Below, in pieces: positions 9,862-16,175 of a DNA stretch of 64,000 nucleotides (the stretch's first letter is position 1; the number at the start of each line of letters is the position of its first letter). This DNA comes from a bacterium 1XD8-76 (lineage in GTDB: Bacteria; Bacillota; Clostridia; Lachnospirales; Lachnospiraceae): contig RAZE01000005.1 of NCBI GenBank assembly GCA_003611955.1, positions 62,001 to 126,000 on the forward strand, in the 5' to 3' direction. Under the pieces are notes generated by a model. It was given only the letters and a program-made list of their open reading frames with translations, was not told the origin of the DNA and did not search any database. The translations under genes and the position numbers were made by a program.

Positions 9862-9934
9862 GCTGGAATAGCGCAGTCGGTAGCGCAACTGATTCGTAAT
9901 CAGTAGGTCGAGGGTTCAAGTCCCTTTTCCAGCT
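9862..9934 (+). tRNA. tRNA-Thr (anticodon CGT)
   Basis: A 73-base cloverleaf: acceptor GCTGGAA/TTCCAGC with discriminator T, D stem GCGC/GCGC, anticodon arm ACTGA-TTCGTAA-TCAGT, and T arm GAGGG-TTCAAGT-CCCTT. The anticodon CGT reads ACG. No CCA is encoded, as is common in Clostridia for part of the tRNA set. Confidence 0.93.
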
Positions 9935-9955
9935 CTCAAAAAACCTCATAACTTC

Positions 9956-10029
9956 GGAAGCATAGCTCAGCTGGGATGAGCGCTCGCCTGACTAGCGGGA
10001 GGCCAAGGGTTCGAGCCCCTTTGCTTCCA
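9956..10029 (+). tRNA. Probable tRNA-Val (anticodon GAC) with unusual loop bases
   Basis: A 74-base cloverleaf: acceptor GGAAGCA/TGCTTCC with discriminator A, D stem GCTC/GAGC, anticodon arm CTCGC-CTGACTA-GCGGG, and T arm AAGGG-TTCGAGC-CCCTT. Positions 34-36 are GAC, reading GTC/GTT. Position 37 is T rather than a purine and the base before the second D strand is T rather than A, so the assignment is less certain than for the neighbouring tRNA. A T run follows at 10030-10036. Confidence 0.75.
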
Positions 10030-10047: not shown

Positions 10048-10866
10048 TTACCGGGTCCTGCAGCATTCCCTGCAGGGGACCAATCTTTTGCTCCTTGCTT
10101 CCCCGTACGTGATCCTCTGTACATTCTCGTCTCTCTTATTCACAATATATCTGCAGTTTCGATCGCGGTGATAAAAGTCTGTCCCGGCGAAGTAGCATTC
10201 GGGTTCTGCCGGCAGTGTCGTGATATACTCCGGTGTGCTGTGTCTGTCTATATAGTCGAAAGTCAGCGATTCCGTGGCCAGCTCCGGTATCAGATAGTTC
10301 GGAGCCGCACCGTATCTCGTATCCGTTCCGTACCCTTCCGAAAAAATGCACAGGGGATTCCCCTGAAATCCGTTCTTTATCATGCTCTGAATCTTTTCCA
10401 GGCTGATCACGTGGACTTCCGAGAACTGATCGTCTATGAAAAAAATAAGGAAACTGCGGCTCTCTATCTTTGTCTTCTCCACAAATGCGCACATGTTCTC
10501 ATATACCGGGACGATATCCAGATAGAAGCTCTCACACCCATAGTTCGCGATGACGGATCCCCTCTGTGTCGTCCCGCCGAATTTCGTCTTCTGGAACTTG
10601 ATCGACTTCAGCTTGATCTCCGCATACACGTACCTCTCTCCATCGATACGGATCACATAATCCGAAGCGCCCCTGACCCAGGCATTTTGCTGCACATTCG
10701 GCGCAAACTGTCCAAACCATATCTCATCGTATCTCATCTTTTCCACTTCACGCTCTGAACCCTGCCTCAGAATACGGCAGATCGTGTCGATGGCTTCCGG
10801 CTCCTTCTCCTTCGCCATGTTCCAGCGCCTGTTTCTCTCCCTGTTATACAATTCCCTGTTATCCAT
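10048..10866 (-). CDS. PD-(D/E)XK-like protein with C-terminal Cys/His finger, third gene of a type III RM locus
   Basis: A 272-residue protein I do not recognise as a named family. Asp69 and Glu83-x-Lys85 (in SDYVIRIDGERYVYAEIKLK) are spaced like a PD-(D/E)XK nuclease active site on a beta-hairpin. The C-terminal 42 residues have His233, Cys238, Cys265 and Cys268 in a layout (CRY...EN...GEA...VPCREC) like the small Ada-type metal-binding module. The ATG at 10864-10866 overlaps the end of the helicase gene and has GGGAGA upstream, so it is translationally coupled. The upstream helicase lacks a visible nuclease domain, so this may supply cleavage. That role is an inference. Confidence 0.65.
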   Translation of the reverse strand: MDNRELYNRERNRRWNMAKEKEPEAIDTICRILRQGSEREVEKMRYDEIWFGQFAPNVQQNAWVRGASDYVIRIDGERYVYAEIKLKSIKFQKTKFGGTTQRGSVIANYGCESFYLDIVPVYENMCAFVEKTKIESRSFLIFFIDDQFSEVHVISLEKIQSMIKNGFQGNPLCIFSEGYGTDTRYGAAPNYLIPELATESLTFDYIDRHSTPEYITTLPAEPECYFAGTDFYHRDRNCRYIVNKRDENVQRITYGEARSKRLVPCRECCRTR

Positions 10867-13057
10867 CCGTATTCTCTCCCTTCTTCCCCCGGGTACTCTC
10901 CGTCCGTAAGATCCGCACATGGGTGATCAGGCGGCGCAACAGCCAGGCCATATCCGAGTAATCATATTCCGCCGGCGTAAACCATTCGCTCCCGCCCATA
11001 TCCCCCGAAAGATTATCCTTTATCAGACAGTACTCTCCGTAGAGCAATCCGTACTTGATGTACAGAAGCTCACAGGGACAGGCAAGGAAAAATTCCCGAA
11101 AATTCCGGTACGTCTCCGGGGACAGCGCAAGCTTTGTGCGGACGGGATCTCCCGAGCCAGATCGATATGTCGCCCTGTCCTTTCTCTTCGACAACTCTCT
11201 CTCCTCACCTGTCTCCCTGTCATGGCTTTTCTTCCCTCCCGCGACAGTATCCATCACATCCCGATCGGTAGCGAACACAAACAGCGTCTCCAGAAGCTGA
11301 TTTTTTCTGTGATCCCCCCGGTCAAGCCGTCTTCTCGAATCTTCTGTGGGTCTGATCCGGATCCCGCGCCCGATGGCCTGCGGGACAAACTTCCTGGCGT
11401 CCCTGCTGCCTATATCTATCAGATTGACCACGTTGGGGCGGTTCGTGTCCCACCCCTCATAGAACGCCCGGCTCCCACACAGCATGGTGATATCCGGATC
11501 GGTCTCGATCCTCTCAAAAATGCTGTCGATGGTGATACTCTTCGTCACACTGTAATTATTTTCGTCCGACATGATGCTCTTCTCAAATTTATCTCTCTCC
11601 CCGATCTTGATCAGTCCAAAGATTTTTTCTGAGGTCTCCAGCTTCATGCCCGTCTCCTGCACATCCTCCGAATGGATAAATTCGATTTTTCCGAAGGTGG
11701 AAGAATGGAAAAGATCCGATAAGATCGTCGCTATCTCCGTCTCCTCCAACAGCTCAAAAAACGATTTTCCGGAATAGACTTTATCCGTAATTTCCAGACT
11801 CTCCTTCCCAAGGGAGTATCGGATCCGGTCCCCGTGAAATTCCCGCTCCAGAAGTTCCCGCTTCGCTTCCAGGTACAGTTCCCTCTCTATCTTTCCGTTC
11901 ACAAGCAGTTCGATAATCCGGAAATAAGTTTTCAGATCGGAATGGCTGGTATTGACGGTTCCGACCAGCGTCATCAGCAGCGGGGAATGATACAGCCCCC
12001 TCTCCGCCCAAGATCTCCTGATTGCCGAATACACAATAAACGACTTTATCACTTCCTTCTGTTTTTCCAGTTCGTCGAGTTCCGATCCGCTTCTTCGGAA
12101 TGTGTACAGGGTATTGCTCAGGAAAATATTCTTGCCGTATCTGTGCTCTATAAACTTTTCCAGATTGAAATTATACAAGGTGGTCTGGAAATCGATCTCG
12201 TCCGCGAAAGTCGCTGAAAAATTGAAAAGAAACCCGTTTCTCGTCAGCGCCGTGAAATATCCCTTCGCCAGAGAGTAATCGTTATCCCCTCTGTGGGCCT
12301 CGTCCAGGATCACATACCAGTTTCCGTCGTTGTCCATGTCACAGTGGGATATAAAATTTTCGGTGGACTTCTCCCGGATCAGGTCGCTCCGGTAGTAGAA
12401 TACGTCCGTGCTCCCCGCCGAGACAGGCTTATCATACCCTTCAAAGTCCTTCAGAGAGATAAATTCTATCTCGTTCTCCCCGTCCGGATCGCCGCCAAAG
12501 TCTTCCGCCTCCCTCATGATCTGCTCCACAATATAATCCTTCGGCGTCAGCAGCAGGATCGGCTTCTCCGGAATCAGATTCCGCTCCATCAGCCTCTTCA
12601 ACAGATCGATCAGTTTCACGATGACGACAGACTTCCCGGAGGCCGTGGCCATCCAGAAGGCGCAGCGGTTATAAAAATGTTTCGCCTCAATGTACTCTAC
12701 GCCGTCCCCGACGGTCTGTTCAAAGTATCTGTTGCGCGTAAAATATACAAACTTTTCGTTTAGCGATCCCTTTCTGTCCTTCGTATATCTCTCCAGTCTG
12801 TTTTCCAGAGAGAAGCCGGGTCTCGCCTCCTCGTAGACTCTAATGAGCCTTTCTTTGCTTTTTCCCGTGTTTTCTCCCTCGAACCGGTAGTCGCGATAGT
12901 ACAAATACAACAGTTTCAGACAGTTATGGACAGCCTCTCTCTGATAGTCATACAACCTCTTATTACGGCTAAACCGGGAGAGATCGGCGGCTGCCTCCGC
13001 AAAATCCTCTATGTCCCCGATCCCGCCCAAAATGTCTTCCAGCAGGCACTTTTCCAT
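10859..13057 (-). CDS. Type III restriction enzyme Res-like helicase, without visible C-terminal nuclease domain
   Basis: A 732-residue superfamily 2 helicase. Motif I is ATASGKS (137-143), motif II DEAH (252-255), motif III SAT (281-283), with YEGWDTNRPNVV near 533-545 and motif VI QAIGRGIRIRP (560-570). These are typical of type III Res subunits, which translocate or switch on DNA after Mod recognises its site. Type III Res proteins usually run to 900-1,000 residues and end in a PD-(D/E)XK domain. Here about 160 residues follow motif VI and I see no D...ExK in them. The start is 4 bases after the mod stop, with GAGAGGG upstream. The next gene may supply the nuclease. Confidence 0.88.
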   Translation of the reverse strand: MEKCLLEDILGGIGDIEDFAEAAADLSRFSRNKRLYDYQREAVHNCLKLLYLYYRDYRFEGENTGKSKERLIRVYEEARPGFSLENRLERYTKDRKGSLNEKFVYFTRNRYFEQTVGDGVEYIEAKHFYNRCAFWMATASGKSVVIVKLIDLLKRLMERNLIPEKPILLLTPKDYIVEQIMREAEDFGGDPDGENEIEFISLKDFEGYDKPVSAGSTDVFYYRSDLIREKSTENFISHCDMDNDGNWYVILDEAHRGDNDYSLAKGYFTALTRNGFLFNFSATFADEIDFQTTLYNFNLEKFIEHRYGKNIFLSNTLYTFRRSGSELDELEKQKEVIKSFIVYSAIRRSWAERGLYHSPLLMTLVGTVNTSHSDLKTYFRIIELLVNGKIERELYLEAKRELLEREFHGDRIRYSLGKESLEITDKVYSGKSFFELLEETEIATILSDLFHSSTFGKIEFIHSEDVQETGMKLETSEKIFGLIKIGERDKFEKSIMSDENNYSVTKSITIDSIFERIETDPDITMLCGSRAFYEGWDTNRPNVVNLIDIGSRDARKFVPQAIGRGIRIRPTEDSRRRLDRGDHRKNQLLETLFVFATDRDVMDTVAGGKKSHDRETGEERELSKRKDRATYRSGSGDPVRTKLALSPETYRNFREFFLACPCELLYIKYGLLYGEYCLIKDNLSGDMGGSEWFTPAEYDYSDMAWLLRRLITHVRILRTESTRGKKGENTDG

Positions 13058-13061
13058 GTGC

Positions 13062-15692
13062 TTATCCCTCTCCCCACCACAATAACGGACGAATCAGACG
13101 GATAAATTTTAATTTTTCCTCCTCCGTCATCTTTTCAAAATCCGTCCTGACTTCCAGATCGGCTCCCCTGTCCTCCACCAGGATCCCTGCATCGGTATAG
13201 CCTTTGATCCTCTTTCCCAGAAGATTGCTCACACTCTCGTTGATGTCGATATCGTCAGCTATTTTCTCCGGTATAAATTCTATATTTTCTGTTATTTTGA
13301 CACTGCCCAGCAGCTTCCGATCCTGCTCAAATATATACTGCTCATAGGGGCTTACCGCGGAGTAACGCATATATTTCCTCCCGCTGTCGTACTCCATCTT
13401 TGCAAGGGTATCCGCGTATTGCTCCAGGGAGTAGTATTTCACGATCCCGGCAACCGACAGTTTTTCGTGGGCCTTCTCCACTCTCCGCTTCAAAACGGTC
13501 TCCGCATAATCGTTGACCTCGATCAGAACATAGTCCACCTGCACATCCGGATTCTCCCGGGCGAAGGACAATACGGCTTCCCCCGATGTCCCGGAACCGC
13601 CGAAGAAATCCATGAAGGTGACGTTCCTCTTATATCTCGTCGAAAAAGTGATGAGATCGGAGATCAGCGACACCGGTTTCGGGTGAATATCGCTGATCCA
13701 CTCCCCGAGACTTTTGACATTATCCAGCGTCCTGTTTAACTCCTCCGTCCCCACCGCATTGTTGTATCTGGTTTTTTCCGCGCAGAACAGAGAGGACAGA
13801 TGGTTGTATTCCTTTCTGCTTCTCTCCGGCTCCCTCCGCAGAAAATAGAAACTGTATATGTCCTCATCCCGCAGATCCGGATTCCGTTTTCTCTTCGCCT
13901 TCTTGAATGCATCCCACTCTTCTTTCGTTTGGATAAAGACGATCTGCCACTCGTAACCCTCATTGAGGCCTTCCGGTTCCTGTTCCAGCGCCCTGTTATA
14001 ATTGTCCTCCCCCAAAAACCACCCGAATCTCACGGAAGAGTTGTAGTGGATCGGCGGATAATGGTCGATGTTCAGATACGGATTATGTACCCTGTACTGG
14101 GAACCTTTTCTCCCCCCGTCCACTTTGTACAGGGGGGCGCGTTTTTTGTAGGGAATGCCGTCTATCAGCGATATACTGCCTGTGCGCTCCGTCTCCTTTG
14201 CCCCGACAACGCCCGCGCTCTCAAAAGCCTTCTTATTTTTCGTGTAGCACAGCATGTAGTCGTGGTGCAGATCAATACAGCTCGCCGTGGTTCTCCCCGC
14301 CTTGGTTTTTCGGATAAAATTGCACACAAAATTGTTTTTGCCGAAGATCCTGTCACATATCAGTTTTAACTCGTACAACTGTTTGTCACTGATGCTGATG
14401 TAGAGGACTCCGTCCTCCGCCAGCATATTTTTGGCGATGCCCAGACGGTCGCTCATCATGGACAGATAGCTGGCGCTCTCGTAACCGTCAATGTACTCGA
14501 AGGAATCCTGATCCGTGTTGTAGGGCGGATCGATATACATGACATCCACCCTGTTTCGGTACGTCTTTTGGATGGTGTGGAGCGCCTGATAATTTTCACT
14601 GTCGATGACGACGCCCCTTACCTTCGTCTCACAGCTGTTGTATATCTCCTGTTCCAGATCTTTGAACAGCCCCGTGTCCAGCATGAGATACGGATGTTCC
14701 CTCAGGTAAGTTTCGTCTATCTCCTCATTTCCCTCTATCGTTTTCTGATCTTTCCACTTCCCGATCTGTCTGTCAAAATTTTTGTGCGCGAGCACCTTCC
14801 CCACCGTCTCGCCTCCAAGGGACGCGACGGAACACAGATACCCCAGCCCTCTTACAAACTTCGGCTTGTCCCATATCCTCACCAGCTCGTCCTCAAACTG
14901 GGCGATGAAATCCGTCAGTTTCCCCGCGTACCGATGGATCAGTTTCATCTCCTCAAGCCGTCTGGCATCGAAGACGTTCTCCTCCCGCAGCAGCAGATCA
15001 TGCATATAGTAGTCAAGCTGCTCCTTCAGGAATCTGCCGGCATTTTTGTTGATAAAGTAGTCTGCCTGCGACTGCCTTTTGAACAGCTCCATGCCCTTTT
15101 CCATCTCATCCGCATCCACCTGCAGGCCCTTTTTGGCCGCCTCCCGCAGGATCCCTTTCAGGTCCGTTTTGGCGTTGCCTTTCGCGTAGGTGACAAGAAG
15201 CCTTATCACGTTGTCCTCTATGCGGTCCAGAGAAAAGAGCAGCTTTCTCTTCTCATTGTTCTTGCGGTTTTCCAGCGCCGACACATCAAAAGAAACGGCA
15301 ACATTCTCATTGACCTCCACTTTCGCGTCGTCAAATAATGTTTCCGTTTTCACATAGTACAACATATTGGTCTTATAAAAAAGCGAAACGTCCTCCCTGT
15401 TGGAATACACTTTTTCATAGACGTTTTTGTTTTTCGGCGTCTTCACAAAATAGATGCTTCCCGCCTCGCTGAAATACTTCTCAAAAAAAGAGTACAGTTT
15501 ATCGTAAAACTCCTCCCGAAAGCTCCCGGCGATGAGAGGTTCCCTCTCCGCTTCCTCCCGGAAGATCTGCATGACGCTGCCGTAATACTCATGTTTGACC
15601 GCGAGGAGATTCACGTACCCTCCGACACCGTTGATTTTCTTCCCCGTGAATATATCCTCCAGGAGTTGATAGAAATTTGTCTCACAGCTCAT
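13062..15692 (-). CDS. Type III restriction-modification methyltransferase (Mod), beta class, long N-terminus
   Basis: An 876-residue DNA methyltransferase. The catalytic motif IV DPPYNT (388-393) comes before the SAM-binding motif I FFGGSGTSGE (696-705), the beta-class order of N6-adenine type III Mod proteins. The long insertion between them would hold the target recognition region. About 360 residues precede motif IV, longer than in EcoP15I-type Mod, and I do not recognise that part; it contains no obvious catalytic motif. It starts 24 bases after fabT on the same strand, with GGAAAG upstream, so it may be read from the fabT promoter. Confidence 0.9.
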   Translation of the reverse strand: MSCETNFYQLLEDIFTGKKINGVGGYVNLLAVKHEYYGSVMQIFREEAEREPLIAGSFREEFYDKLYSFFEKYFSEAGSIYFVKTPKNKNVYEKVYSNREDVSLFYKTNMLYYVKTETLFDDAKVEVNENVAVSFDVSALENRKNNEKRKLLFSLDRIEDNVIRLLVTYAKGNAKTDLKGILREAAKKGLQVDADEMEKGMELFKRQSQADYFINKNAGRFLKEQLDYYMHDLLLREENVFDARRLEEMKLIHRYAGKLTDFIAQFEDELVRIWDKPKFVRGLGYLCSVASLGGETVGKVLAHKNFDRQIGKWKDQKTIEGNEEIDETYLREHPYLMLDTGLFKDLEQEIYNSCETKVRGVVIDSENYQALHTIQKTYRNRVDVMYIDPPYNTDQDSFEYIDGYESASYLSMMSDRLGIAKNMLAEDGVLYISISDKQLYELKLICDRIFGKNNFVCNFIRKTKAGRTTASCIDLHHDYMLCYTKNKKAFESAGVVGAKETERTGSISLIDGIPYKKRAPLYKVDGGRKGSQYRVHNPYLNIDHYPPIHYNSSVRFGWFLGEDNYNRALEQEPEGLNEGYEWQIVFIQTKEEWDAFKKAKRKRNPDLRDEDIYSFYFLRREPERSRKEYNHLSSLFCAEKTRYNNAVGTEELNRTLDNVKSLGEWISDIHPKPVSLISDLITFSTRYKRNVTFMDFFGGSGTSGEAVLSFARENPDVQVDYVLIEVNDYAETVLKRRVEKAHEKLSVAGIVKYYSLEQYADTLAKMEYDSGRKYMRYSAVSPYEQYIFEQDRKLLGSVKITENIEFIPEKIADDIDINESVSNLLGKRIKGYTDAGILVEDRGADLEVRTDFEKMTEEEKLKFIRLIRPLLWWGEG

Positions 15693-15716: not shown

Positions 15717-16175
15717 TCAGCAGACAATATTCTGTTTCCCATAGCCCTTAAAAAAATCATTCACTGCATCCAGCACTTTCATCACGATCGGCATATCGCT
15801 CTCGTCCAGCCTCGCCAGCACCGCCTCCGTCATCTGTCTGTGGTATTCTTCATGGTGCCGGTAGGCCGCTACGCCCTTCTCCGTCAGCTTCAGGAAAACG
15901 ACTCTTCTGTCCTCCTCGCTGCGGCTCCGCTCCACGTACTGCTTTTTCACCAGGTGGTTGACCGCCGTAGTTAATGACCCCATCGTGATACTCAGTTTTT
16001 TTGCCACTGCGGACATATTTTTATCTTCGTTCAGTCCGATGGCCTCGATCACATGCATATCGTTGTTCGTCAGATCCTTAAATTCGTCGGTTATGATCGC
16101 TTTTGCCTCCAACTCCCAGATCTCATTCACCAGCCGGACCAATAAATTGTTTACTTTTCTGTAAATGTCTTCCAT
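15717..16175 (-). CDS. fabT: MarR-family regulator of fatty-acid synthesis, FabT-like
   Basis: A 152-residue winged-helix regulator. It matches the FabT pattern: an EMH-like NDMHVIEAIGL, a recognition region ITMGSLTTAVNHLVKKQYV, and the wing RSEEDRRVVFLKLTEKG. FabT represses fatty-acid synthesis genes when long-chain acyl-ACP is bound. It sits at the distal end of the fab operon, unlike the promoter-proximal position in streptococci, and has its own promoter. FabT-box-like palindromes on the fabH promoter support the identification. Confidence 0.87.
   Translation of the reverse strand: MEDIYRKVNNLLVRLVNEIWELEAKAIITDEFKDLTNNDMHVIEAIGLNEDKNMSAVAKKLSITMGSLTTAVNHLVKKQYVERSRSEEDRRVVFLKLTEKGVAAYRHHEEYHRQMTEAVLARLDESDMPIVMKVLDAVNDFFKGYGKQNIVC

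Follow-up and report, generated by a model that had tools for sequence, protein, structure and literature searches.

A type III-like restriction-modification operon with a short Res and a probable nuclease in trans in a Lachnospiraceae bacterium

Which protein cuts the DNA when the helicase of a type III-like restriction-modification (RM) operon carries no nuclease? The question is raised by three adjacent genes in a 64,000-nucleotide stretch of the genome of bacterium 1XD8-76 (Lachnospiraceae; contig RAZE01000005.1, positions 62,001 to 126,000), called here the window, in which a DNA methyltransferase gene (mod) is followed by a gene for a short Res and by a third gene that overlaps res. Type III enzymes cleave DNA in an ATP-dependent manner, about 25–27 bp from one member of a pair of unmethylated sites in inverse orientation, and because the motor and the nuclease share one chain, the ATP-driven communication along DNA is hard to separate from the cutting. 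A first-pass annotation of the window proposed that the third protein was either a split-off part of Res or a new effector subunit. It seems fairly probable to us that the locus is a type III-derived RM operon that has lost the fused nuclease and in which a non-homologous third protein cuts in trans.

The Mod-Res pair and the loss of the fused nuclease

All three genes lie on the minus strand at the positions originally assigned to them (Table 1). Mod matches Pfam N6_N4_Mtase (1.3e-23) and PADLOC MTase_III PDLC03638 (1.8e-141), and its N-terminal part is common to its Mod subfamily. Res matches Pfam ResIII, and the top structural match of its model is the Res subunit of EcoP15I (4zcf_C), tied with other superfamily 2 (SF2) translocases; a search of PDB sequences with the Res profile gave no match at 0.01. 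The description of the two proteins as a type III pair agrees with homology and motifs, as a type III-subgroup beta-class N6/N4 Mod stands next to a type III SF2 Res with helicase motifs, but the Res is not canonical. Because its chain contains no C-terminal PD-(D/E)xK nuclease, the locus is named here a type III-like variant and not a canonical member. Motif VI of Res (QAIGRGIRI, residues 560–568) lies 164 residues from the C-terminus, close to the earlier estimate of about 160. Among the best 50 VIA-align rows for the Res model no structural match extends past residue 620, and residues 610–732 have no Pfam match. It is common for helicases of the type III kind to carry a restriction-fold nuclease fused to one end or the other (PMC2292703; here and below, papers are cited for those passages of them that were available).

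Relatives of Res were gathered from plasmids, contigs of species genomes (11 loci), viral contigs (6 loci) and 398 genomes of the phylum. At 1e-25 Res was matched in 12 of the 398 genomes drawn from the phylum, its own genome counted, which was also the sole match among 392 genomes of the order (single-sequence query) and 397 of the family (profile). Within the close clade, 23 distinct Res had both ends present and could be compared, namely those of the window, L009, L018, L039, L005, L010–L017, L033–L036 and L041–L046, where the contig L009 shares its sequence context with locus L004 in a second genome of the genus (G008). This count leaves out L006 (interrupted), L019 (cut by the contig end), the duplicates L020–L028 and L040, the distant Res of L007, L008, L029–L032, L037 and L038, the plasmid hits H3, H4 and H6, and the phage hit H28. 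In L006 (5920–10204, an Athalassotoga plasmid), it is an IS256-family transposase that interrupts Res, the C-terminal nuclease being still present.

Nineteen of the 23 comparable Res, 946–1042 aa long, carry a C-terminal fused nuclease with the pattern PDF(I/V/L)FW ... F(V/I/A)DPK. A hidden Markov model (HMM) of this domain, built from 13 of them, recovers all 19, including the six outside its building set, and L006 in addition. The same HMM finds nothing at E≤1 in the six frames of the window, L004 (standing in for L009), L018, L039 and L065, the last being the locus of a third-protein homologue described below; in a repeat of this search the positive controls L013, L042 and L046 were all found, at 2e-59 or better. 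The initial observation that Res lacks a nuclease is confirmed, and a complete nuclease inside the 732-residue helicase was not found by HMM, alignment or model.

The four Res without the domain belong to three lineages: the window and L009 (732 aa), L018 (Anaerolineae, 748 aa), and L039 (735 aa). In the alignment all four run to nearly one position, immediately ahead of V..E...LK.LE.EI.HF, the segment that precedes the nuclease; the 17–25 residues after this position, with which they end, were judged unalignable, and because the program scatters the last few of these, its raw end columns are not identical. Closest to the window Res is L041 (99/97), which carries the fused nuclease, and the Res tree requires three changes for the short form. 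A single short-form clade is rejected (approximately unbiased test, p-AU 2.3e-11), in a tree where long-branch effects are possible because the branch of the window pair measures 2.48 changes per column. On this tree the fused nuclease was lost three separate times in the Res clade.

The third protein and its relatives

The residues first read as a nuclease motif, Asp69 and Glu83-x-Lys85, are present in the 272-residue third protein, and so is the Cys/His finger. One distant homologue was found, in a genome (G441, locus L065) from another family of the same phylum. It is 48% identical over residues 5–198 and 43% identical over 207 columns, with a score of 418 against a shuffled maximum of 52. 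The pattern WVRG..DY ... Y.Y.EIKLK is kept between the third proteins and this homologue, in which PD is found, and D69, E83 and K85 are invariant in all three rows of the alignment (A5), two of which are 90% identical. The Cys/His module, spaced H233-x4-C238-x26-C265-x2-C268, is missing from the homologue; it has no Pfam match, and its spacing may resemble that of an Ada-type zinc site. A strict D...ExK expression, devised after the motif had been seen, matches 6 of 230 distinct open reading frames (ORFs) of at least 250 aa, non-coding ones included, and the background is 4 of 228 once the third protein and its orthologue are removed.

At L065 (569–5131), a phospholipase D (PLD)-like 202-aa gene is followed by a gene for a 1033-aa Eco57I/type IIG-like methyltransferase and then, directly and with an overlap, by the homologue gene, near the contig end. 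There is no type III Res in the stretch of L065 that was read, and the locus appears to be an uncharacterised restriction-like system. Since its family is tied to two different methyltransferase operons and bears the D...ExK motif, the third protein is most simply a restriction nuclease; motif, conservation and context together make this likely.

By sequence the third protein bears no recognisable resemblance to the fused nuclease of Res (BLASTP best E 0.14; hhalign probability 0.5%), and pairwise profile comparisons among three nuclease candidates (the fused domain, the third protein and a 148-aa protein of L018 described below) give probabilities of 0.2–0.5%. Sequence similarity inside the PD-(D/E)xK superfamily is typically very low (PMC1189080), and remote kinship among the candidates is compatible with such scores because the effective number of sequences (Neff) in the third-protein and L018 profiles is 1.0–1.3. 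The family libraries give neither a PLD match nor any other match to the third protein, and in PHROGs it reaches two unknown families alone, at E 0.19 and 0.25.

The family is sparsely distributed in the collections searched. The third protein was found in 2 of 98 genomes of relatives, its own counted, and in 9 of 396 genomes of the phylum at E≤0.05, where its own genome and G441 are real and the other seven are short weak matches (0.005–0.044). A profile search gave 1 of 284 genomes, G441, which is itself a row of the profile. Plasmid and phage collections held none at 1e-5 and chance-level rows at E 2–7 at a loose limit, and the L065 homologue as query found none there at E≤1. In viral contigs there was no match to the third protein, and the ORF of one pattern match looked unrelated on reading.

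Operon conservation and genomic setting

In G008 (locus L004), which belongs to the same genus, the three genes occur in identical order and frames with the overlap kept, and the third protein is 90% identical to that of the window. The ratio of nonsynonymous to synonymous substitution rates (dN/dS) between the two is 0.11 for mod, 0.19 for res and 0.22 for the third gene, with 0.15 over third-protein residues 1–130. An assembly frameshift is rejected because the frames and overlap are the same in both genomes and because of these low ratios (0.11–0.22). The 8-base overlap with res stands as first described (Table 1). A GGGAGAG stretch resembling a ribosome-binding site (RBS) is located at 10874–10880, 7 nt upstream of the third-gene ATG at 10866; the frame also has an earlier ATG, at 10920. 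The mod-res-third gene order, of which a survey had been suggested as a check, is kept in G008; the distant homologue stands behind a type IIG-like methyltransferase.

Table 1. Features of the operon and its borders in the window
Feature	Position	Strand	Description
mod	13062..15692	-	type III-like beta-class DNA methyltransferase, 876 aa; DPPYN and FGGSG motifs
res (short)	10859..13057	-	SF2 helicase/translocase, 732 aa; TASGKS (motif I), DEAH, SAT, QAIGRGIRI
res C-terminal part (residues 606-732)	10862..11242	-	after helicase core; mostly helices in model
third gene	10048..10866	-	272 aa, candidate PD-(D/E)xK nuclease with C-terminal Cys/His cluster
res stop/third-gene start overlap	10859..10866	-	8 bases, ATGGATAA
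candidate catalytic segment of third protein	10612..10662	-	D69-Y ... E83-I-K85; PDY...EIK in distant homologue
Cys/His cluster, candidate zinc site	10060..10197	-	C224, H233, C238, C265, C268, C269; absent from distant homologue
tRNA-Thr(CGT)	9862..9935	+	operon border
tRNA-Val(GAC)	9956..10029	+	operon border
MarR-family regulator	15717..16175	-	opposite island border; chromosomal flank, outside the system

Two non-carrier genomes of the same genus (G006 and G003, empty sites L049 and L050) have a MarR gene directly followed by tRNA-Thr and then by a response regulator; in carriers, the operon and tRNA-Val are situated between MarR and tRNA-Thr. These empty sites represent two of the five non-carrier genomes with a regulator match, the other three having no MarR within the 1.5-kb flank, and the regulator match is absent in two of the nine genomes of the comparison. 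The GC content is 0.49–0.51 in the three operon genes, 0.55–0.59 in three flanking genes and 0.516 in the whole window; composition thus gives only a weak hint of foreign origin. Bordered by tRNA genes, the operon has the look of an island that may have been acquired horizontally. Ten other genes of the window were checked and are housekeeping- or uptake-like or have no match. tRNA-Thr overlaps the first codons that the ORF list gives to the response regulator (TTG at 9888), so the gene probably starts further in.

Genes are also found between mod and res elsewhere in the clade. In L018 (7185–7631), a 148-aa protein with TTDIDF...FLEVK, PD-ExK-like, is encoded between mod and the short res; searches of viral contigs yielded no relatives of it, those of Pfam, PHROGs and NCBIfam nothing of note, and profile comparison no recognisable similarity to the fused nuclease or the third protein. 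The gap in L041 (6658–7368) encodes a 236-aa protein with DPYDIDLIV...ILIEVEE, PD-ExE-like, beside a full-length Res. Further loci hold a pair resembling a cyclic oligonucleotide-based antiphage signalling system (CBASS), with a SMODS nucleotidyltransferase and a Cap15 receptor, between mod and full-length res (L005, 6476–7929, a Rhodothermus marinus plasmid), a nucleotidyltransferase/HEPN combination (L012, 6864–7928) and a HATPase_c_4 protein (L019, 2794–3681). In L045 (8225–12978), the mod matches are split over two ORFs about 1.9 kb apart, and mod may be interrupted.

Competing explanations and the place of the operon among restriction systems

In the type III model, a Mod2Res1 complex undergoes ATP-triggered diffusion and cleaves when inverted sites meet (PMC8259958). 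By analogy, site recognition would fall to Mod, switching and sliding to Res, and cutting, in trans, to the third protein. What is observed is the set of genes, their homology and conservation and the loss from Res of its nuclease; every activity and the assembly are inferred, as follows. Mod, whose motifs are those of a methyltransferase, would recognise and methylate its site, and the short Res, judged by its fold and motifs, would serve as an ATP-driven switch or translocase communicating along DNA. The ancestral Res lost its fused nuclease, and the PD-(D/E)xK-like product of the overlapping third gene probably supplies the cut; it would join Mod-Res via the C-terminal helices of Res or its own Cys/His module. 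The cut would be made once unmethylated sites have activated the motor.

Several observations weigh against this reading. Pfam, PADLOC and NCBIfam contain nothing that matches the third protein; phmmer finds no match among PDB sequences, where a profile search returned one irrelevant row at E 1.6. Its AlphaFold model, made from a two-sequence alignment, has a mean predicted local distance difference test (pLDDT) score of 34.9 and no strand at the motif, and the family was found in three species only. Between the window and L004, the synonymous rate (dS) is 0.235 in the third gene (9274–10092 in L004) and 0.10–0.12 in mod and res, and it reaches 0.31 over third-protein residues 131–215. With a dS twice theirs, the third gene has a history that differs from that of mod and res, perhaps through recombination, the sole explanation offered. 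Other genes occupy the mod-res gap at 5 of the 22 clade loci with both genes visible, and a neighbouring gene may for this reason be an independent passenger. Finally, L039 (4502–9231, genome G624) has mod and the 735-aa Res and no nuclease-like neighbour in the stretch read, on a contig that stops 632 bases past res. A short Res is therefore not always paired with a neighbouring partner, and L039 looks like a methylation-only relic or a system whose partner is encoded elsewhere. As the neighbourhood alone proves little, it is the overlap, the conservation and the homologue that carry the case of the window.

The window operon might itself be a methylation-only relic, in which an epigenetic or anti-restriction methylase persists with its motor and the third gene does something else. 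L039 has this appearance, and methylation in some type III systems is reported to need co-expression of Res, the two thermophile systems DthLIII and FnoB1III being of this kind (PMC8259958), so that the motor could be retained. We nevertheless regard a relic as rather unlikely, since two species conserve the third gene and its overlap with res and the D/E/K triad is kept in the distant homologue. Quite improbable is an independent defence passenger, such as a stand-alone type II or modification-dependent enzyme, sitting behind a crippled type III operon. The occupied mod-res gaps, the higher dS of the third gene and the G441 homologue adjoining another methyltransferase would agree with it, but the third gene overlaps res by 8 bases behind an RBS-like stretch, the gene order is the same in two species, and no methyltransferase of the third gene's own is seen between its neighbours here. 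The early suggestion of a true split, with the original C-terminal nuclease detached by a stop or frameshift, would suit the position of the third gene downstream of res and a summed length (732 + 272 aa) near that of a full Res, but it is very improbable, because the third protein is dissimilar to the fused nuclease (at a third-protein Neff of 1.3 only), the fused-nuclease HMM is silent in every frame, and the third-protein family also follows a different methyltransferase, in an operon that is not type III, which makes replacement unlike domain fission.

The preferred reading, a trans-acting nuclease of separate origin, can be set beside known systems. Canonical type III RM systems (EcoPI, EcoP15I, and those with the full-length Res of Rhodothermus, Desulfofundulus and other members of this clade) have the same beta-class Mod (DPPY, FGG), an SF2 Res downstream and the mod-res order, whereas in the window Res has 732 aa instead of 946–1042, lacks the nuclease and is followed by a third gene. 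CglI and NgoAVII have a PLD-type R protein and a 5-methylcytosine methyltransferase. They are closest in principle, as methyltransferase, nuclease and helicase are likewise encoded on three genes and cleavage requires the N- and R-proteins with extensive nucleotide hydrolysis (PMC4267653), but they are built from other protein families, while Mod and Res of the window are of type III families. In the type III N4-methylcytosine systems BspHIV and Eco86II a third gene is likewise tied to mod-res, there 5' of mod; it encodes an extra SF2 ATPase, and their Res retains the C-terminal PD-(D/E)XK nuclease (PMC8259958). The G441 operon shares the third-protein family and its overlapping position directly behind the methyltransferase gene, and differs in its Eco57I-type enzyme, its PLD-like gene and the absence of the Cys/His module. 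The available part of PMC12707154 does not mention a type III system whose nuclease is encoded separately, and no published one was recognised among the matches listed from the open-licence PMC literature, as far as the texts were available. We found no earlier description; judged from sequence, what is new is a type III-like system whose nuclease has probably been exchanged for one acting in trans.

Tentatively, the Mod-Res of this clade may be pictured as a chassis with a single fixed joint at which the nuclease comes off; at least two lineages would have recruited stand-alone PD-(D/E)xK-like proteins unrelated to each other. If this is true, type III restriction would consist of a motor and exchangeable effectors, like clustered regularly interspaced short palindromic repeats (CRISPR) systems or CBASS, and the family of one recruited nuclease would work with a type IIG-like methyltransferase as well. 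If the thermophile systems with Res-dependent methylation share this clade, removal of the nuclease from Res would uncouple methylation from cutting. Such loci, we expect, would otherwise be annotated as truncated type III systems. A natural system with a separate, non-homologous nuclease, if true, would mean that evolution can replace the effector in type III systems, and it would make methylation, motor and cutting separable one at a time.

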